Shown here: one piece after another, positions 44,667-52,750 of the stretch | Layout: the number at the start of each line of letters is the position of its first letter | Position numbering within the stretch: position 1 is the stretch's first letter | DNA from: Clostridia bacterium | GTDB lineage: Bacteria; Bacillota; Clostridia; Acetivibrionales; DSM-27016 | Reading direction: 5' to 3' | NCBI GenBank assembly: GCA_026414765.1 | Contig: JAOAIJ010000027.1 | Coordinates: forward strand, 1 to 64,000 | DNA length: 64,000 nucleotides | Position numbers and translations under genes: made by a program | The notes under the pieces: model-generated | Seen by the model: only the letters and a program-made list of their open reading frames with translations | The model's database searches: none | What the model was told of the DNA's origin: nothing

Positions 44667-44695
44667 TTGACAACCCATTCTAAAAGGAGTATCAT
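44667..44695 (+). promoter_or_regulatory. promoter of the hydrogenase-related complex operon
   Basis: TTGACA (44667-44672), 17-bp spacer and TATCAT (44690-44695), about 65 bp before the first gene. It would give one transcript for the seven same-strand genes to 52750. Confidence 0.55.
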
Positions 44696-44760: not shown

Positions 44761-46824
44761 ATGTATTTGGAAAAGGTTTTCCTTTCTGAAGATTTAAAAT
44801 ACATATTTCTATTCATGTTGGTAATATACATATCAGGTGCATTAATATCCTTAATTCTACACAAAAGACAAAAAACAGCTTTAATAATATCAAATTCTGC
44901 AGTAATAGCTGCTTCTGTAGTAGGTAGCTTTTTTTCTTTAATGATATTATCTTCAGAAAACAAAAACATTTTGGAGTTTTCATTTGCAAGTAACATCAAA
45001 AATATTTCAATTGATTTCAGAATTGATAATCTTTCAGCTTTATTTATACTGATTATTTCTTTAATTTCCCTTACAGTTTCATTATATTCATATGGATACT
45101 TGAGGCATTACTTACATAAAAGAAATTTAAGCTTATTTGGATTTCTATATAATTTTTTTGTTTTATCAATGGTACTGGTTGTTTCATCCGGACATCTATT
45201 CTTTTTCCTTATAGTCTGGGAGTTAATGTCCTTGATTTCATACTTCCTGGTTGTTTTTGAGAACGAAAAGGCTGAAACGCAAAAAGCGGGTGTTATGTAC
45301 ATAATAATGACACATATAGGAACAGCGTTTATTATAGCTGCTTTTGTATTAATATTTAAATACTCTGGAACAGCTTATTTTTCCTCAATAAACCTCGAAA
45401 AAACACCTTTAGCTGTAAAAAACATAATATTCTTATTTAGTTTGATAGGCTTTGGCACCAAGGCCGGTCTGATCCCATTACATGTGTGGCTGCCTAAAGC
45501 ACATCCGGCGGCACCAAGTAATATTTCTGCTTTGATGTCTGGCGTCATGATAAAAACTGCTGTATATGGTATTATCAGAGTATGTTTTGGTTTTTTGGAC
45601 CCCCAGTATCTTTGGTGGGGAACGCTGGTACTTGTAATCGGAGGTATCACAACAATACTGGGAATAGCGTTTGCCTTAATGGAAAATAATATCAAGAGGT
45701 TGCTTGCTTACTCTAGTGTAGAAAATATCGGTATCATAATGATAGGTGTAGGGATAGCCTTAACATCCTATTCAAAAGGGTATACGGGAATAGCTGTATT
45801 TGCCATAAGTGCTGCACTCCTACATACATTGAACCATTCAATATTTAAAAGTATGCTTTTCTTAGGTGCTGGAGCTATACATTATTCGACTGATACAAAA
45901 AATATGGAAAAGCTGGGCGGCTTGATAAAACGTATGCCATTTACAGCTTTGTTTTTTTTGTGTGGAACTTTATCCATATCTTCGATTCCGCCTTTTAATG
46001 GATTTACCAGTGAATGGCTTATATATCAGTCACTTTTTGCAGGTATCGGAATAACCGGAAGCTGGTATAAGATCATACTTATATTAATAGTTGCATTATT
46101 AGGAATGGCAGGAGTATTGGTAGCAGCAAGCTTTATTAAGACATTTGGTATTGCATTTCTTGCTCTTCCAAGGACAAGCAGCGCAAAATCAGCCGAGGAA
46201 GTTCCTAAGTCAATGCTTGCAGGTATGGGAATTTTATCGTTCCTGTGCATATTGTTTGGCATACTGCCTGGAATAACTCTCAGACTGATTGAAAATGTGA
46301 GCAATGATTTTTTTGGTAATTCAATAAGCAGTGTAATCACTGGAAAGTCCAGCTTCCTAATGTTTTCTGATAAGAGTAGTACATCAATTTCTCTAGCTGC
46401 ACTTGTCATAGCTTTTTTGATTTTGATTCCCGTCTTATTGCTAATAGTAAATCTACTTAAAGGAAAAGCACAAAAAAGAGTGTATAAAACGTGGGATTGC
46501 GGGTACAGGGCTTTAGATTCAAGAATGCAGTATTCTGCAACAGGTTTCTCTAAACCGTTACGAATTGTATTTAGAGCATTATACAGGCCAAATAGAGAAT
46601 TTGAGGTAGAAAGCGGAGCTACGGAGTATTTTTTCAAATCAGCCCAATATAAAGTTTCAACTCAATCAATATTTGAAAAATACATGTATGAACCAATTAT
46701 TAAAAATGTCATAAATTTTGCAAGGAGAACCAGATTTCTTATACAGACAGGGAGTATACATACTTACCTCATTTATATATTTGTAGTTATTGTTGTAATG
46801 TTCATTTATTATGCAAAATCCTAA
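44761..46824 (+). CDS. hydrogenase-4 component B-like proton-channel subunit (Ehr complex)
   Basis: A large NuoL/MrpA-type membrane subunit (687 aa, about 16 helices) like HyfB/HycC. The conserved channel segment GTKAGLIPLHVWLPKAHPAAP with following SGVMIK is near residues 238-264, and the family's cytoplasmic KTWDCGYRALDS is near 577-588. It should form one of two ion-pumping modules. GGGGGG precedes the ATG. First gene of the operon. Confidence 0.88.
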   Translation: MYLEKVFLSEDLKYIFLFMLVIYISGALISLILHKRQKTALIISNSAVIAASVVGSFFSLMILSSENKNILEFSFASNIKNISIDFRIDNLSALFILIISLISLTVSLYSYGYLRHYLHKRNLSLFGFLYNFFVLSMVLVVSSGHLFFFLIVWELMSLISYFLVVFENEKAETQKAGVMYIIMTHIGTAFIIAAFVLIFKYSGTAYFSSINLEKTPLAVKNIIFLFSLIGFGTKAGLIPLHVWLPKAHPAAPSNISALMSGVMIKTAVYGIIRVCFGFLDPQYLWWGTLVLVIGGITTILGIAFALMENNIKRLLAYSSVENIGIIMIGVGIALTSYSKGYTGIAVFAISAALLHTLNHSIFKSMLFLGAGAIHYSTDTKNMEKLGGLIKRMPFTALFFLCGTLSISSIPPFNGFTSEWLIYQSLFAGIGITGSWYKIILILIVALLGMAGVLVAASFIKTFGIAFLALPRTSSAKSAEEVPKSMLAGMGILSFLCILFGILPGITLRLIENVSNDFFGNSISSVITGKSSFLMFSDKSSTSISLAALVIAFLILIPVLLLIVNLLKGKAQKRVYKTWDCGYRALDSRMQYSATGFSKPLRIVFRALYRPNREFEVESGATEYFFKSAQYKVSTQSIFEKYMYEPIIKNVINFARRTRFLIQTGSIHTYLIYIFVVIVVMFIYYAKS

Positions 46825-46839
46825 TATCGGGGTGAAAAA

Positions 46840-47790
46840 ATGTTTATAGATTTAGCAAAATGCATTTTGCAAATATCAGTCATTATAATATTTGCTCCTC
46901 TAGTAAACGGGATAATAAGGAAAATCAAGGCTAAAGTTCAACATAGAAAGGGAGCACCTGTCTTTCAGATGTATTATGATCTTCTCAAGCTTTTTAAGAA
47001 GGATGTAGTTATTCCTGAGAACTCATCATGGATTTTCTGGATAACCCCTTATGTTTATTTTATATCAATAATCATTGCGGCTCTGTTTGTACCGGTAATT
47101 CCACAAATGTTTTCATTTGGCTTTACGGGAGATATGGTACTTTTTGTATACCTTCTTGCAATAGGAAGACTTTTTATGGTTTTAGCAGGATTAGATACAG
47201 GAAGTACATTCGGAGGTATGGGCAGCAGTCGTGAAATGATGATTTCATCCCTTATTGAACCTTCGCTATTAATAACACTTTTTACTTTAGGACTTAACCC
47301 TAATAATTATTCAGCTAATTTTAAAGCTATTTATGCAGGCTCAATAAATGTGGGGGCTGGTATATTCAGCCCTGCATATATGCTGCTTTTAGCCGCAATG
47401 TTGATAGTGCTTATTGCCGAAACTGCAAGAATACCGGTAGATGATCCAGCAACTCATCTGGAGCTGACTATGGTACATGAAGCAATGATATTGGAATATT
47501 CGGGCAGATATCTGGCTTTAATGCAGATATCTGCTTCAATAAAGCAGCTTTTACTGATTACACTTGTAGTAAATGTATTTTTCCCTTTTAGTATTGAAGC
47601 AGAGCCGATAATAGGTCTTTTCATAACACTGATTTTATATGTTTTAAAAGTAGTTTTGACAACTGCTCTTATAGCATTTGTTGAGATCAATTCTGTAAAA
47701 CTAAGGTTGTTCAGTGTGCCAAATTATGCGGCACTTGCATTTATATTATCATTATTAGGTTTTATGGCGTCATTTGTATTCGGGAGGTAG
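46840..47790 (+). CDS. NuoH/HyfC-like membrane subunit (Ehr complex)
   Basis: A 316-aa membrane protein with about eight helices that joins the ion-pumping arm to the electron-transfer arm. NuoH-family marks are RKGAPVFQMYYDLLKLFKKD near residue 38 and AETARIPVDDPATHLELTMVHEA near 190, which is the group 4 hydrogenase version. Starts 15 bases after the preceding gene, with GGGGTG upstream. Clearly HyfC/HycD-like rather than respiratory complex I NuoH. Confidence 0.9.
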   Translation: MFIDLAKCILQISVIIIFAPLVNGIIRKIKAKVQHRKGAPVFQMYYDLLKLFKKDVVIPENSSWIFWITPYVYFISIIIAALFVPVIPQMFSFGFTGDMVLFVYLLAIGRLFMVLAGLDTGSTFGGMGSSREMMISSLIEPSLLITLFTLGLNPNNYSANFKAIYAGSINVGAGIFSPAYMLLLAAMLIVLIAETARIPVDDPATHLELTMVHEAMILEYSGRYLALMQISASIKQLLLITLVVNVFFPFSIEAEPIIGLFITLILYVLKVVLTTALIAFVEINSVKLRLFSVPNYAALAFILSLLGFMASFVFGR

Positions 47791-47794
47791 TGAG

Positions 47795-48463
47795 ATGAAT
47801 AAGTTTTTAGATATCTTGAATCTTTTTTCAATGTTTATTCTAATAACTACTTTTATACTTGTAGCAAATAAAAGAATCAATTCTTATATTAAGACATTCA
47901 GGCTTCAGTCGGCTCTTCTGGCTTTAGTAGCTGCTACATTTAGCCTTTACCACCTAATAGAAGAAGGGAAGTTTGACGGTATCATTATAATATGTCTGCT
48001 AATTATTGCTCTTAAGGTTATTTATATACCTAGTATGCTGAAAAGAATTACTAAAAGAGTTGAGTATAAAGTGGAAAAAGACTTTTTTATAAACATTCCG
48101 ATTTCCATTATCATTTGCTGTGGACTGGTAATATTAATCTGGTATGTTGTTTCGTTAATACCTGATATCAGAAACATGTACGAGCGTATATTCCTGACTA
48201 ATTCCGTAGCAGTAGTGCTTATAGGTCTTTTCTTTATGATCAGCAGGCGAAAGGCGATAGGACAGATAATAGGCTTTCTTGTAATAGAAAACGGTATGTT
48301 TATGGCTGCCATACTTACCACATTCGGAATGCCTATGATTGTAGAAATAGGTGTATTTTTCGATTTGCTCACAGCAGTTTTGATTATGGGAGTATTCGTG
48401 TTCAGAATAAATGAGAATTTTGATTCAATAGATATAAATAAGTTACGTAATCTAAAGGGATAA
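47795..48463 (+). CDS. HyfE-like membrane subunit (Ehr complex)
   Basis: A 222-aa protein with about six to seven membrane helices, like HyfE, with a NuoK-like half (IGFLVIENGMFMAAI near residue 155, conserved membrane glutamate). The start is set at ATG 47795, six bases after GGGAGG. An upstream ATG at 47774 overlaps the previous gene and lies before that site. Third gene of the operon. Confidence 0.87.
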   Translation: MNKFLDILNLFSMFILITTFILVANKRINSYIKTFRLQSALLALVAATFSLYHLIEEGKFDGIIIICLLIIALKVIYIPSMLKRITKRVEYKVEKDFFINIPISIIICCGLVILIWYVVSLIPDIRNMYERIFLTNSVAVVLIGLFFMISRRKAIGQIIGFLVIENGMFMAAILTTFGMPMIVEIGVFFDLLTAVLIMGVFVFRINENFDSIDINKLRNLKG

Positions 48464-48478
48464 GGTATAGGAGGTATT

Positions 48479-49960
48479 ATGATAGCATTGTTGCTGTTTA
48501 TTCCACTTATTACGTGTGGAATGTTCTGGTCTACAAAAAATAGGAATATATTGAATATCATAAATGCATCCGGAATAACATTACTGCTTGGGTTATCTGT
48601 GTATTGTGCATATGATGTCATACTGAATAAAAACATCACCCTCAAGCTTTTCAGTGATATCATATATATTGATTCTCTCAGCGCTTTGATGCTTTTAGTT
48701 ACTTCATCGGTTGCTTTTCTGGCTTCAGTTTATTCTATTGGCTATATGAATGAGGAGTTTGACAGAAAAATAATTAGCATTAAAAAGCTTCAGATTTATT
48801 ATACTCTTCTGCATGTATTCATTTTCACCATGATCCTTACAATTACTACGCAAAACATGGGACTTATGTGGATCGCAGTAGAAGCAACAACATTAGCCTC
48901 AGCTTTTCTGGTAGGTTTTTATAATGACAAGAAATCGATCGAAGCAGCCTGGAAGTATATCATAATATGTTCAGTCGGTATTGCTTTTGCCATGCTTGGC
49001 GTTGTCATGCTGTATTATTCCTCGATGCATTCATTAGGAGAATCTGTTTCAGGACTAAACTGGACATATCTTTTTGAAAATGCCGGGAAGCTGCAGGGGA
49101 GCATACTTAAGATAGCTTTTATATTTATACTGGTCGGATTTGGAACAAAGGTTGGATTAGCCCCTATGCATACGTGGCTCCCTGATGCACACAGTCAGGC
49201 ACCATCGCCAATAAGTGCCCTGCTTTCAGGAGTGCTGCTGAATACAGCCATGTACTGTATTATAAGGGTTATGATAATTGTCAATAAAAATGCCGGAAAC
49301 AATATTTATACAAGCAAACTTCTTGTAGCATTAGGAATAATATCTATTGGGACGGCTGCAATATTTATCCTGGTACAGCAGGATTTCAAGAGATTGCTTG
49401 CGTATTCAAGCATAGAGCATATGGGAATTATAGCTTTAAGCCTTGGTATATTCACACCGTTAAGTATTTTTGGGGCACTATATCATATAATAAATCACGC
49501 TTTTACAAAATCAATGCTTTTTATAGCTTCGGGTAATATATATTTAAAATATAACACAAAAAAGATAAGCAAGGTTCAAGGTATTTTAAAAACAATGCCC
49601 ATAACAGGTACTGCATTTATAATAGGACTTTTCGCAATAACAGGAATGCCTCCTTTCAGCGTTTTCAGCAGTGAACTGAACATAATTATTGCATCCTTTG
49701 AAAAGACAAGCTATATACCCGCTGCATTGATGCTTTTATTTCTAACATTTGTTTTTGCGGGTTTTGTTAAGCAAATGATGAAAATGTTTTATGGAAAACC
49801 TCAAATTAAAGAGTTGAGACCAGGCGAGATAAACCGGATAGGGTCAGTAATACTGATTACGTATATAATAATTATCACAATAACAGGCTTCTATATTCCT
49901 GGTCCAGTAAAAGAACTTATTGATTCTGCAGGAGAAATTGTCAGAGGTACTGTAAAGTGA
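48479..49960 (+). CDS. HyfF-like proton-channel subunit (Ehr complex)
   Basis: A second antiporter-like membrane subunit (493 aa, about 14 helices), of the NuoN/HyfF type. The conserved motif is GTKVGLAPMHTWLPDAHSQA near residues 222-241, followed by SGVLLNTA. TQNMGLMWIAVEATTLASA is characteristic of HyfF-type subunits. GGAGG is before the ATG. With the HyfB-like protein it gives two pumping modules. Confidence 0.88.
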   Translation: MIALLLFIPLITCGMFWSTKNRNILNIINASGITLLLGLSVYCAYDVILNKNITLKLFSDIIYIDSLSALMLLVTSSVAFLASVYSIGYMNEEFDRKIISIKKLQIYYTLLHVFIFTMILTITTQNMGLMWIAVEATTLASAFLVGFYNDKKSIEAAWKYIIICSVGIAFAMLGVVMLYYSSMHSLGESVSGLNWTYLFENAGKLQGSILKIAFIFILVGFGTKVGLAPMHTWLPDAHSQAPSPISALLSGVLLNTAMYCIIRVMIIVNKNAGNNIYTSKLLVALGIISIGTAAIFILVQQDFKRLLAYSSIEHMGIIALSLGIFTPLSIFGALYHIINHAFTKSMLFIASGNIYLKYNTKKISKVQGILKTMPITGTAFIIGLFAITGMPPFSVFSSELNIIIASFEKTSYIPAALMLLFLTFVFAGFVKQMMKMFYGKPQIKELRPGEINRIGSVILITYIIIITITGFYIPGPVKELIDSAGEIVRGTVK

Positions 49961-50012
49961 AAAGTATAAGGAAGAACTGTAAACTGATTATTGTCTAAAG
50001 GGGTACGGGACT

Positions 50013-51599
50013 ATGCTTGAAAAGATAATTGATGCGCTCAGGAGGAGCTTTCCTGGAGAAATTAAAAAATATGAAACAGTAAACAATAATGAAATATATA
50101 TAGAAATAACAACAGAAAGTGTAATGGAAATATGTAACTTTATCTATAAAAATATTGATTGTTCACTTGTTTCGCTTTTTGCAAATGATGATAGGACCCT
50201 TGATGAAAGCTATGCAGTATACTATACGTTTGCGATAAGGAAGGCGGGAGCTTTGCTTGTTGTAAAAACAAAGGTTTCTAATGATAAAGCTGTTTTGAAA
50301 TCAATTTCTTCTTCAATACCTGCTGCGTGTCTTTATGAAAGAGAAGTAAGTGATATGTATGGAATAAACTTTGAGGGAATCCCTGACAACAGAAAATTTG
50401 TATTTCATGAGAATTGGCCAGAAAAGTTGTATCCAATGAGAAAAGAAGTACCAGTTTCTGAAAAGCCTCCTTTTGAAGATAATGAACAGGAATTTATAAA
50501 AATAAACGGAACGGGAGTATTTGAGATTCCTGTAGGTCCTGTACACGCAGGCATAATAGAGCCGGGCCATTTCAGATTCAGTGTGGCAGGTGAGCCAATT
50601 ATCAACCTTGAAGCCAAACTATTTTATGTTCATAAAGGAATAGAAAAACTTTCTGAAAATCAGCATTTTGAAAAGGTATTGTTTTTATCCGAGAGAATCT
50701 CAGGAGATGAAACATTTTCAAACTCACTGGCTTACTGCATGGCTTTGGAGAAAATAGCCGGCTTTACGCAAATCCCTGAAAGGGCGGATTATACAAGAAC
50801 AATTCTTTGCGAATTGGAAAGGCTATATAACCATATTGGTGATATTGCCGGATTATGTGTTGATGTTGCCTATGTATTTGCAAATGGTCAATTTGCCATG
50901 ATGAGACGATGGTGTCAGATGCTTAATGAGGAATTGACCGGAAGCAGGTTTTTACGAAGTGCTAACAGGCCTGGTGGGCTAAGAAAGGATTTTATAAAGA
51001 ATAAAGAAAGTATTATTTTATCAAGTTTGCAAAAACTTGATAAAGAATTTAACGAGACTGTAAATATAATAAAATCAAATAGTATGTTTATAGACAGGGT
51101 GGAAAATACTGGTATAGTCAGGCACTCGGTGGCCGTAGATTTAAATGCTGTAGGTCCGGCGGCCCGTGCAGCGGGCATAAGGGAAGATGTGAGGGCAAAC
51201 TATCCATATGCAGCATATGATAGGATTCAATTTTCAATACCTGAACATCGAAATGGGGATGTAAACTGCAGAATGAACACAAAGATTGAAGAAGTAAACG
51301 AATCAATAAAAATAATACAAAAATCCATAGAAAGCATGCCTGTAGAAGGTAATTTTATTGAGCCGGTTACAGATATTGAGCCTTACAAATATGCATTTGG
51401 AATTACCGAATCGCCAAGGGGCGAGAACGTTCATTGGCTTATGTCAGGTGAAAAAAATACAATCTTCAGGTATAAAATAAGGACTCCGTCCTTCTGTAAT
51501 TGGCCTGTACTGTGTCATGCCGTAAAAGGGAACATAGTTCCTGATTTCCCTTTAATAAATAAAAGCTTTAATTTGTCATATTCAGGAAATGATTTATAA
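50013..51599 (+). CDS. HyfG-like fused NuoC-NuoD subunit without nickel ligands (Ehr complex)
   Basis: A 528-aa fusion of a NuoC-like domain (about 1-135; REVSDMYGINFEGIPDNRKF) and a large NuoD/hydrogenase domain. In true group 4 [NiFe] hydrogenases the first CGxC motif sits where this protein has ERISGDETFSNS (227-238). The second DPCxxC motif sits where it has SFNLSYSG at the very C-terminus (518-525). All four nickel cysteines are therefore absent, while nearby landmarks (ILCELERLYNHIGDIAGLC, NRPGGLRKDF) remain. It should not bind NiFe. It is a good fit to Ehr-type complexes, not to H2 evolution. Confidence 0.88.
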   Translation: MLEKIIDALRRSFPGEIKKYETVNNNEIYIEITTESVMEICNFIYKNIDCSLVSLFANDDRTLDESYAVYYTFAIRKAGALLVVKTKVSNDKAVLKSISSSIPAACLYEREVSDMYGINFEGIPDNRKFVFHENWPEKLYPMRKEVPVSEKPPFEDNEQEFIKINGTGVFEIPVGPVHAGIIEPGHFRFSVAGEPIINLEAKLFYVHKGIEKLSENQHFEKVLFLSERISGDETFSNSLAYCMALEKIAGFTQIPERADYTRTILCELERLYNHIGDIAGLCVDVAYVFANGQFAMMRRWCQMLNEELTGSRFLRSANRPGGLRKDFIKNKESIILSSLQKLDKEFNETVNIIKSNSMFIDRVENTGIVRHSVAVDLNAVGPAARAAGIREDVRANYPYAAYDRIQFSIPEHRNGDVNCRMNTKIEEVNESIKIIQKSIESMPVEGNFIEPVTDIEPYKYAFGITESPRGENVHWLMSGEKNTIFRYKIRTPSFCNWPVLCHAVKGNIVPDFPLINKSFNLSYSGNDL

Positions 51600-51647
51600 A
51601 TTAGATTGAATTATTCAGACTTAAGATAATAATTGAGGGATGGTAAT

Positions 51648-52472
51648 ATGTATAGCATAATAAAAAAGTTTATAAACCACGGTGTAGTAACAGTTGATTA
51701 CCCAAAAAAACCTGTTAACAGTAAATCTATCACAGGAAAGCCGGAAATAGATATGGGTAGATGTGATGCATGTGGAGAGTGTGTAAAAAGGTGTCCTTCG
51801 TCAGCACTACAGCTTGAGACTGATAAGAATAAGACAAAAAAGGTAACTGAAAATAATGCAATTTCAACTCTAAGTTTAAACTTAGATGAGTGCATTTTTT
51901 GTTCTTTGTGTAGCGATGTGTGTAATAAAAATGCAATTACAATGACAAACAATTTTGAACTGGCGGAGTATGACAGAGAGAGTTTGAGAAAAACTCCTGT
52001 AGTTGTAAAGGATAGAGACTTACCATCTGACGAGTATGAATTAATAGGGCAGCAGCTTAAGGAAAATATAAACAGATATTTCGGTAGAAGTCTTCAAATA
52101 AGAGAAGTAGATGCCGGATCTTGCAATGGATGCGATAACGAAATAAATGCACTAAACGGACCATATAATGATATTGAAAGGTTCGGTATTAGTTTTGTAG
52201 CCTCACCAAGGCATGCTGATATGCTTCTTGTCACAGGTCCTGCCAGCCGTAATATGGAACTTGCACTTATCAAAACGTATAATGCAACACCTGATCCAAA
52301 GCTGGTTGTTGCGGTTGGAGCCTGCGCATGCAGCGGTGGCATATTCAAGGATAGCTATGCTACAAGAAACGGGATAGATTGTATTGTTCCGGTAGACATA
52401 TATATACCTGGATGTCCGCCAAGGCCGCAAGCTATAATATATGGGCTACTAAAAGCTATAGAGAGGAAATAG
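51648..52472 (+). CDS. fused ferredoxin (HyfH-like) and NuoB/HyfI-like subunit (Ehr complex)
   Basis: A 274-aa protein joining two subunits that are usually separate. Residues 36-95 form a two-cluster ferredoxin (Cys39/42/45/49 and Cys82/85/88/92). The rest is NuoB/HyfI-like, with the proximal cluster ligands in GSCNGCDNE (159, 162), GACACSGG and IPGCPPRP (256). ATG 51648 is chosen from GAGGGATGG eight bases upstream. Thus electrons could enter through the ferredoxin part and reach the proximal cluster next to the large subunit. Confidence 0.9.
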   Translation: MYSIIKKFINHGVVTVDYPKKPVNSKSITGKPEIDMGRCDACGECVKRCPSSALQLETDKNKTKKVTENNAISTLSLNLDECIFCSLCSDVCNKNAITMTNNFELAEYDRESLRKTPVVVKDRDLPSDEYELIGQQLKENINRYFGRSLQIREVDAGSCNGCDNEINALNGPYNDIERFGISFVASPRHADMLLVTGPASRNMELALIKTYNATPDPKLVVAVGACACSGGIFKDSYATRNGIDCIVPVDIYIPGCPPRPQAIIYGLLKAIERK

Positions 52473-52552
52473 GTTGTTATATTAAGAGCAATAATATAAA
52501 ATGGTTGGTAAGAATTGCATATGATATATTAATAACAGGAAAGGGTATGAAA

Positions 52553-52750
52553 ATGAGTAAGGAATGCGTGTTGTATGATAGAGTATGCAGTAATTGCGGT
52601 GAATGTGAGATATGCGATCTGAATAATAATAAAATATGTAATAACTGCGGAAAATGCATAGATGAAATTAACCCATATAGGAGCATAGCTCTGGAAGATT
52701 TTATCAAAAAACAGGAGGATAAAGAAAAATTAGATAATACGAAAAAATAA
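52553..52750 (+). CDS. small cysteine-rich protein, last gene of the Ehr operon
   Basis: A 65-aa protein with eight cysteines, seven of them in a regular run at residues 12-35 (C-x2-C-x2-C-x2-C, then C-x2-C-x2-C). This could bind zinc or an Fe-S cluster. The rest is charged. ATG 52553 is preferred (AAGGG seven bases upstream); an ATG six bases earlier is possible. It lies 80 bases after the ferredoxin/NuoB gene. No known family was recognised; a small electron carrier or assembly factor is a guess. Confidence 0.7.
   Translation: MSKECVLYDRVCSNCGECEICDLNNNKICNNCGKCIDEINPYRSIALEDFIKKQEDKEKLDNTKK

Follow-up and report, generated by a model that had tools for sequence, protein, structure and literature searches.

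What does a hydrogenase-like membrane complex do once its large subunit has lost every residue that should hold nickel? The question is posed by a 64,000-nucleotide stretch from the genome of a Clostridia bacterium, a relative of clostridia that break down cellulose (assembly GCA_026414765.1, contig JAOAIJ010000027.1, positions 1 to 64,000 of the forward strand; hereafter the window), in which six consecutive + strand genes at 44761-52472, all of them open, encode HyfB-, HyfC-, HyfE-, HyfF- and HyfG-like proteins and one fusion of HyfH- and HyfI-like proteins. Judged from its sequence, the predicted complex is an intact, selected and nickel-free energy-converting-hydrogenase-related (Ehr) complex, a member of a widespread, published family of unknown function. 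What is new here is a three-column contrast with a four-cysteine sister group, purifying selection on the large-subunit gene, the absence of quinone residues with Glu183 kept, and the occurrence of cluster-free small subunits among the relatives.

The nickel-ligand positions of the large subunit are occupied by S230, E233, S522 and G525 in place of the first to fourth cysteine, none of the four cysteines being present, and the match to PF00374 (Ni hydrogenase) reaches 20.6 bits, below the cut-off of 25.8. The first-pass annotation of this DNA had read SGDET (residues 230-234) in place of CGxC and SFNLSYSG (518-525), at the C-terminal end, in place of DPCxxC, and had held that this was neither misalignment nor truncation; each of these claims was borne out. 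In a 100-row MAFFT alignment, the two motifs line up with RVCGIC and DPCxxC of HyfG and HycE from E. coli, of HycE from Pantoea and of the Ech encoded in the same genome; phmmer, run independently against HycE in formate hydrogenlyase structure 7z0s, gives the same placement over residues 6-527. The C-terminus is natural, as all eight closest homologues shown (L039-L046) also end in NDL. An AlphaFold model, made from an alignment of 67 of the 93 large subunits, has a mean pLDDT of 93.1 and matches E. coli formate hydrogenlyase HycE best (TM-score 0.95; Z 51.0, root-mean-square deviation (rmsd) 1.7 over 521 residues); its only stretch with pLDDT below 50, residues 177-183, is aligned with the Nqo4 loop bearing His38. 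Misalignment and truncation are rejected by both alignments, by the model match and by the intact hydrogenases of the same genome.

The genome itself (G000, 4.56 Mb) contains an Ech hydrogenase with intact RVCGIC and DPCISC and a second [NiFe] hydrogenase large subunit, taken to be of group 1, with RICGIC and DPCVSC, so such motifs are readable in this assembly. A search for maturation genes, as proposed in the first-pass annotation, found open reading frames (ORFs) resembling Pantoea HypA, HypB, HypC, HypD and HypF. By all appearance the host makes real [NiFe] enzymes, and the loss of nickel ligands would thus be specific to the Ehr complex. The second hydrogenase (L007, contig C43) is flanked by cytochrome b5-like and multicopper-oxidase-like ORFs, as named from reading the sequence.

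Relatives were collected by a scan of one genome per species, in which at least 581 were confirmed; the best 80 of 581 were used, and locus counts given here refer to relatives nearest to the window, not to all Ehr. These 80 span Bacillota, Nitrospira, Brocadia, Acidobacteriota, Verrucomicrobiota, candidate phyla and archaea. Together with the other loci, and with L130 left out of the large-subunit sets (its contig ends within the gene), 79 large subunits have no cysteine at any of the four ligand columns, 12 have all four (RICGxC and ELCYAC) and two fall in between, with two cysteines remaining in L076 (SGIC, LSYAC) and one in L103. The Cys-less count includes L047 and L048, whose cysteine at column 231 lies outside the ligand columns. 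With a separating column defined as one where a single residue fills at least 90% of the Cys-less rows and another residue fills at least 8 of the 12 four-Cys rows, exactly 3 of 528 columns separate the groups: 230 (S in 76/79 versus C in 12/12), 522 (S in 79/79 versus C in 12/12) and 525 (G in 76/79 versus C in 12/12). The fourth ligand column, 233, holds C in all 12 four-Cys rows and S (29), T (24), E (21) or N (5) in the 79 others; columns 232 (D in 69/79) and 520 (N in 69/79) differ less strictly. Since the nickel-holding residues are replaced in a fixed way, the Ehr complex probably does something other than make hydrogen.

The four-Cys sister group (L054, L056, L059, L060, L062, L069, L077, L084, L112, L125, L127 and L128), with ELCYAC for DPCxxC, has the same genes, is 38-48% identical to the Ehr of the window (11 rows), and shares the HyfH-HyfI fusion in 10 of 12 cases; no hyp genes were found in its fetched flanks. 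By this comparison, a few positions set Ehr apart from a four-Cys enzyme, and the question becomes open to experiment in a laboratory strain that can be cultured. L076 belongs to a Desulfosporosinus bin and is apparently an independent, partial loss of nickel cysteines. In a Methanomassiliicoccus bin (L061, 176-13772), an Ehr unit adjoins a four-Cys Ech-like unit on one contig.

In a 118-row tree, the Cys-less rows and L103 form one group (SH-aLRT 96), including the Nitrospira moscoviensis locus (L096), beside a grade of four-Cys rows, both being sister to HyfG/HycE. Because the outgroup is a hydrogenase, the cysteines would have been lost rather than gained. With the ligand columns removed, the free quick tree breaks the Cys-less group, and the wider group with four-Cys rows has support 100; constraining the tree to contain the Cys-less group raises the log-likelihood by 6.26 (p-AU 0.638). 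For the Cys-less state, one origin is favoured, not proven. The second hydrogenase of the genome was left out of the trees, as was NuoCD from the ligand-free trees and the small-subunit tree. The first-pass assignment to Ehr agrees with motif, gene content and tree: the unit is group 4 hydrogenase-like with Hyf-type membrane subunits, it shares HyfB-, C-, E-, F-, G- and I-like subunits and the absence of the CxxC nickel ligands with Ehr, and it groups with N. moscoviensis, for whose order Ehr is printed, and with candidate-phyla, thaumarchaeal and Saganbacteria rows, which are printed Ehr groups in the accessible parts of the literature. It differs in that its ferredoxin domain is fused to the small subunit, a fusion shared by each of the 12 rows that make up its 13-row clade with it. 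The defining Ehr papers are reportedly those of Coppi (2005) and Marreiros (2013).

Loss of all catalytic ligands is also what a dead hydrogenase drifting under relaxed selection would display, and a 2026 Geobacter paper, in its available part, calls the Ehr of that organism nonfunctional and expects relaxed selection (PMC13194489). For the window's complex such decay is very improbable and was rejected on the fixed replacements across Cys-less rows (76-79 of 79) and on low ratios of nonsynonymous to synonymous substitution (dN/dS). The ratios for the large-subunit gene are 0.042, 0.062, 0.065 and 0.091 in four pairs within the G136 genus, the four usable of seven homologue pairs, the three more distant pairs being saturated at synonymous sites; the open state of all six genes points the same way. 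The large-subunit gene is, by these estimates, under strong purifying selection, and the family pattern speaks against relaxed selection as a general rule for Ehr. Formate, compared with hydrogen, went with a higher abundance of the Ehr subunits in Geobacter, according to the accessible part of a proteome study (PMC7894505).

Two quinone-headgroup residues of Nqo4, His38 and Tyr87, and MbhL Glu21, key for proton reduction, are described in the available text of PMC7684303. Their phmmer equivalents in the window are Ile182, Gly231 and Glu183, conserved in 79, 77 and 78 of the 79 Cys-less rows, respectively. The proximal cluster motif of the small subunit, CNGC/GAC/PGC, has all four ligands with the hydrogenase-type CxxC spacing found in Ech and Hyf, and the fused gene carries two CxxCxxCxxxC ferredoxin motifs; the ferredoxin-type input read in the first pass is thereby supported at the level of motifs. 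In 19 of 69 Cys-less loci, the window included, an intact proximal cluster goes with an ORF on the fetched stretch that has two complete ferredoxin motifs. By motif, the window Ehr is predicted to be none of three known types, having no nickel thiolates, no quinone residues and no open iron, with the proton residue kept. Both membrane modules named earlier as antiporters are indeed antiporter-type: Glu154, Lys234, Lys265, Lys363 and Glu418 of HyfB are conserved in 69-74 of 74 rows, and Glu135, Lys224 and Glu399 of HyfF in 82, 83 and 70 of 86 rows, the Glu and Lys residues being kept except at one HyfF position. These assignments follow the residue numbering of NuoL and NuoM.

The reading adopted here, tentatively and with somewhat less than even confidence, is that the six-gene, ferredoxin-wired Ehr performs ferredoxin-driven ion translocation with a non-proton acceptor, possibly a naphthoquinone supplied via an orphan MenA. 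Reduced ferredoxin would donate to the fused HyfH-HyfI subunit, and electrons would pass via its two [4Fe-4S] clusters and the hydrogenase-type proximal cluster to the former Ni-Fe chamber. There, the four thiolates are replaced in a fixed way (by Ser, Glu/Ser/Thr/Asn, Ser and Gly) and the presumed proton-relay residue Glu183 is kept, so no proton reduction at nickel would be expected; electrons and protons would reach another acceptor entering the chamber, and the reaction would drive cation translocation through HyfC, HyfB and HyfF. In this host, the acceptor would most likely be a prenylated naphthoquinone, with the orphan MenA acting on a scavenged precursor. Ferredoxin-driven ion pumping, as first read from the sequence, is plausible.

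Genome content bears on the acceptor. The genome encodes a MenA-like prenyltransferase (372.7 bits, cut-off 289), a polyprenyl synthase, ApbE, and relatives of a Pyr_redox_2 protein resembling type-II NADH dehydrogenase that is found near MenA in G136-type genomes. It contains no match to MqnA/D and neither MenB (best 79 versus 343 bits) nor UbiE/MenG (76.6 versus 158 bits) over the cut-off, and de novo menaquinone synthesis was rejected on these grounds. Among ten other Ehr genomes, in which MqnA/D was not sought, MenB exceeds the cut-off in none, the matches in G069, G109 and G337 reaching 143-167 bits against 342.7. The contigs C36, C11 and C42 of the genome (L193, L194, L146) carry NADH-dehydrogenase-like proteins, ApbE, polyprenyl synthase and the orphan MenA, with no MenB or MqnA/D, and this set may possibly be part of a flavin/quinone extracellular electron transfer system. 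In the G136 genus, MenA stands in one gene run with an NADH-dehydrogenase-like protein (L160, L162, L163), with ApbE confirmed in L160 and polyprenyl synthase in L162; two putative FMN-binding lipoproteins in these runs have no Pfam family match. The layout presumably resembles the Listeria locus for flavin-based extracellular electron transfer. Lactiplantibacillus plantarum, which has no complete pathway for the demethylmenaquinone precursor DHNA, needs added DHNA for such transfer, according to the accessible text of PMC8837199. Among 391 Clostridia genomes, nine have a close Ehr (the present one and eight at 59-62% identity) and two a distant one (37-38%), the partial hits G292 and G247 being left out of both classes; by hand count, a MenA-like match was found in all nine with close Ehr (E<1e-69) versus 51 of the other 382 (E<1e-60), a co-occurrence that is suggestive only.

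Several observations weigh against a quinone-reducing, ferredoxin-driven Ehr. Both quinone-headgroup residues of complex I are absent (Ile182 for His38, Gly231 for Tyr87), which holds back the scavenged naphthoquinone, our best guess for the acceptor; HyfF has Asn255 at the position of NuoM Lys265; and 12 cluster-free small subunits sit with large subunits sharing the same chamber residues. The nine genomes with MenA and close Ehr represent three lineages, one genus giving seven of nine, and the MenA-like matches of that genus lie below the curated cut-off, with only G000 and G109 above it. MenA without close Ehr occurs in 51 genomes, no MenA match was obtained in the two distant-Ehr genomes (G069, G337), and the MenA gene does not adjoin the Ehr unit. 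Rnf and Ech are encoded in the genome as well and offer possible outlets for ferredoxin besides Ehr. In the G136 genus, no Rnf match was found in any of seven genomes, and each of the seven has a second, putatively Ech-like match; Ehr and Ech are therefore candidate ferredoxin-linked pumps there.

The strongest new lead comes from relatives without any visible redox centre. In total, 82 small subunits were compared, 69 of them, including that of L103, from Cys-less complexes; eleven loci yielded no small subunit (L088, L091, L099, L105, L108, L109, L110, L116, L121, L123 and L129) and were left out of the cluster counts and, like Ech-type rows, of the small-subunit tree. Of the 69, 56 keep all four proximal-cluster ligands, one keeps three, and 12 keep none or one (L090, L095, L097, L098, L100, L104, L107, L114, L115, L117, L118 and L120; the L095 subunit is without its N-terminal part, with masked bases nearby). 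In these 12 rows, SCNGC is replaced by S[DTS]NA[CTE] or SDNST, GAC by GDD or GDG, and PGC by [PL]G[DN]. The remainder of the protein is alignable: window HyfI and the L114 row are 51% identical, and a model of the L114 subunit (pLDDT 90.7) keeps the NuoB/MbhJ fold (e.g., 6cfw_J, rmsd 2.0 over 136 columns). No ferredoxin domain was found in any of the 12 loci within the on-contig part of the operon, L104 and L117 being cut at the contig end; L117 is flagged for a ferredoxin motif, but its sole listed Cys-rich ORF is on the opposite strand at another place on the contig. In the large subunits of the 12 loci, Ser230, Gly231, Asp232, Ser522 and Glu183 are retained in 12/12 and Gly525 in 11/12, HyfB keeps its antiporter residues in 11/11 loci with the gene on the contig, and HyfF keeps Glu135 and Lys224 in 12/12.

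The cluster-free rows form two groups: eight rows of the candidate-phyla type, a Thermoleophilia bin among them (SH-aLRT 99), and four rows of archaea and Chloroflexi (100); a single origin of the state was marginally rejected (p-AU 0.042). Proximal-cluster loss was found in none of the 12 four-Cys rows, nor in L076. In four candidate-phyla bins (L090, L095, L100 and L109, the last without a small subunit found), F1 ATP synthase genes (AtpD, AtpC) occur in the same fetched stretch, directly before the Ehr unit in L095 and L100. No report of small-subunit cluster loss was found in the literature on Ehr, most subscription papers lying outside this scope; in their accessible text, Ehr papers including PMC7304191 treat missing nickel ligands, expression and possible roles, not small-subunit clusters. 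In a Rokubacterial Ehr small subunit (L124), SPNCC, with adjacent cysteines resembling complex I, stands for CNGC.

As the cluster-free small subunits accompany large subunits with the same chamber residues, the chamber may have a role other than receiving an electron acceptor; relatives without proximal ligands keep the scaffold without this redox chemistry, so the redox reading is not transferable to all Ehr. It is a possible view, held short of even confidence, that Ehr shed its redox centres piecemeal (nickel ligands, ferredoxin domain and, in some, the proximal cluster) and that at least two lineages run a complex I-like machine without a recognisable redox centre. The shared function of the scaffold would then be chamber-controlled ion translocation, and the clostridial, ferredoxin-wired version would be a redox-controlled or redox-driven special case.

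The same observations raise the alternative that Ehr is a cation/proton antiporter of Mrp ancestry with a structural or regulatory peripheral arm, the iron-sulfur clusters here sensing the redox state of ferredoxin and gating ion exchange with no terminal acceptor. It is consistent with the 12 of 69 small subunits that retain at most one proximal ligand and have no ferredoxin domain in the on-contig part of the operon, with the retention of Ser230, Asp232 and Ser522 and of the HyfB antiporter residues beside them, with the ATP synthase genes at four candidate-phyla loci, and with the available part of a Methylacidiphilum genome paper, which lists Ehr among possible pH-homeostasis proteins (PMC6688271). 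However, the window's complex and 18 other Cys-less loci keep four proximal ligands and a two-ferredoxin-motif ORF, needless for a mere antiporter, and the cluster-free members may have changed function; for the window's complex this alternative is unlikely, though it deserves to be taken seriously. Far less probable is that the complex works as archaeal MBS does, reducing sulfane sulfur with electrons from ferredoxin at an open iron in the proximal cluster. The architecture is the same, both complexes would be ferredoxin-linked, both are without nickel and without His38/Tyr87 equivalents, and nickel ligands are partly lost in MBS too. However, MBS keeps two of the four cysteines, its proximal cluster has three Cys and its Glu21 is lost, as given in the accessible text of PMC7684303, whereas the window's complex shares neither cysteine feature and keeps the CxxC spacing, four proximal ligands and the Glu, so MBS-like catalysis is disfavoured. 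No MBH or MBS chain is among the 50 VIA-align rows listed for the large-subunit model, which does not speak against kinship.

A hydrogenase or other metal enzyme with an oxygen-ligated metal at Ser230, Asp232, Glu233, Asn520 and Ser522 is hardly credible. Ser230, Asp232, Asn520 and Ser522 are conserved and polar, yet there is no thiolate at the four positions and position 233 varies. No match to hyp genes, a HycI-type protease or FdhF was found in the fetched flanks of Ehr loci, which are short for some of them, and a Nitrospirales study, in its accessible part, cites no rise of Ehr expression with H2 in N. moscoviensis (PMC12342949). Compared with formate hydrogenlyase and hydrogenase-4 (HycE, HyfG), which give the closest solved structure (7z0s_E, 317 bits), the large subunit of the window lacks CGxC, DPCxxC and the C-terminal extension. 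With complex I/NDH-1 the Ehr of the window shares the NuoCD fold (E. coli NuoCD, TM-score 0.90 by query length) and antiporter-type subunits, but has no His38/Tyr87 equivalents, a proximal CxxC instead of adjacent cysteines and no NADH module in the unit.

Nitrifiers carry Ehr, as do ammonia-oxidising archaea and candidate phyla; its function is called unknown in the accessible text of several papers. Ccel_1686-1691 of Clostridium cellulolyticum are listed as ferredoxin-dependent ech and mbh in Table 6 of PMC3561251, available in part, and the six-gene Ehr unit of G136 near 2.03 Mb fits these genes; if the match is true, the hydrogenase entry is wrong and does not represent a nickel hydrogenase. 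Ehr without redox centres, if real, would require a new view of how ion pumping is tied to redox chemistry across the complex I family.

Features of the locus are listed in Table 1. The first-pass annotation had described a seven-gene unit at 44761-52750 with HyfB-, HyfC-, HyfE-, HyfF-, HyfG- and HyfH/I-like proteins; such subunits are present, but a single fused gene (ORF 51633-52472) encodes both HyfH and HyfI, and the unit has six genes. The fused ORF opens at a TTG at 51633, and its start was taken at the ATG at 51648, where several homologues begin.

Table 1. Features of the Ehr locus and its surroundings in window coordinates.
Feature	Position	Strand	Basis
Promoter-like site TTGACA-17-TATCAT	44667..44695	+	Consensus match only, 11/12 positions; ~65 bases upstream of the first gene
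HyfB-like antiporter-type membrane subunit, 687 amino acids	44761..46824	+	NF005086 (hydrogenase 4 subunit B), 689.1 bits, above cut-off 667
HyfC/NuoH-like membrane anchor, 316 amino acids	46840..47790	+	PF00146, 131.7 bits
HyfE-like membrane subunit, 222 amino acids	47795..48463	+	NF008556, 94.3 bits, below cut-off 136
HyfF-like antiporter-type membrane subunit, 493 amino acids	48479..49960	+	NF005044 (hydrogenase 4 subunit F), 513.3 bits, below cut-off 610
Ehr large subunit (NuoC+NuoD / HyfG type), 528 amino acids, without nickel ligands	50013..51599	+	Complex1_30kDa and Complex1_49kDa matches, alignments, model
SGDET codons (residues 230-234), CGxC position	50700..50714	+	Alignment
SFNLSYSG codons (residues 518-525), DPCxxC region	51564..51587	+	Alignment
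HyfH-HyfI fusion: 2x[4Fe-4S] ferredoxin domain and NuoB-type proximal-cluster subunit	51648..52472	+	PF01058, 113.3 bits; Fer4 families
Cys-rich protein (CxxCxxCxxC...CxxCxxC), 67 amino acids, neighbour outside the complex	52547..52750	+	Genome distribution; gene order in L180 and L184

Promoter-like sites are not enriched in the region (40 found versus a mean of 41.1 in shuffles). The gene at 52547-52750 was rejected as a seventh Ehr subunit because of its independent distribution and an Ehr-free neighbourhood elsewhere. Its product has no Pfam or NCBIfam match at E<=0.01, and the protein was found in 104 of the 391 Clostridia genomes (E<=0.01). In G109, the gene of this type and the Ehr genes lie on different contigs. 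In L180 and L184, the order is a lexA-like gene, a lysM-like gene and the small Cys-rich gene, with no Ehr genes between, the first two being named by likeness to the genes of the window. Most simply, as these two sites suggest, the Ehr unit would have been inserted in the lineage of the window, separating the lysM-type gene from the small one.

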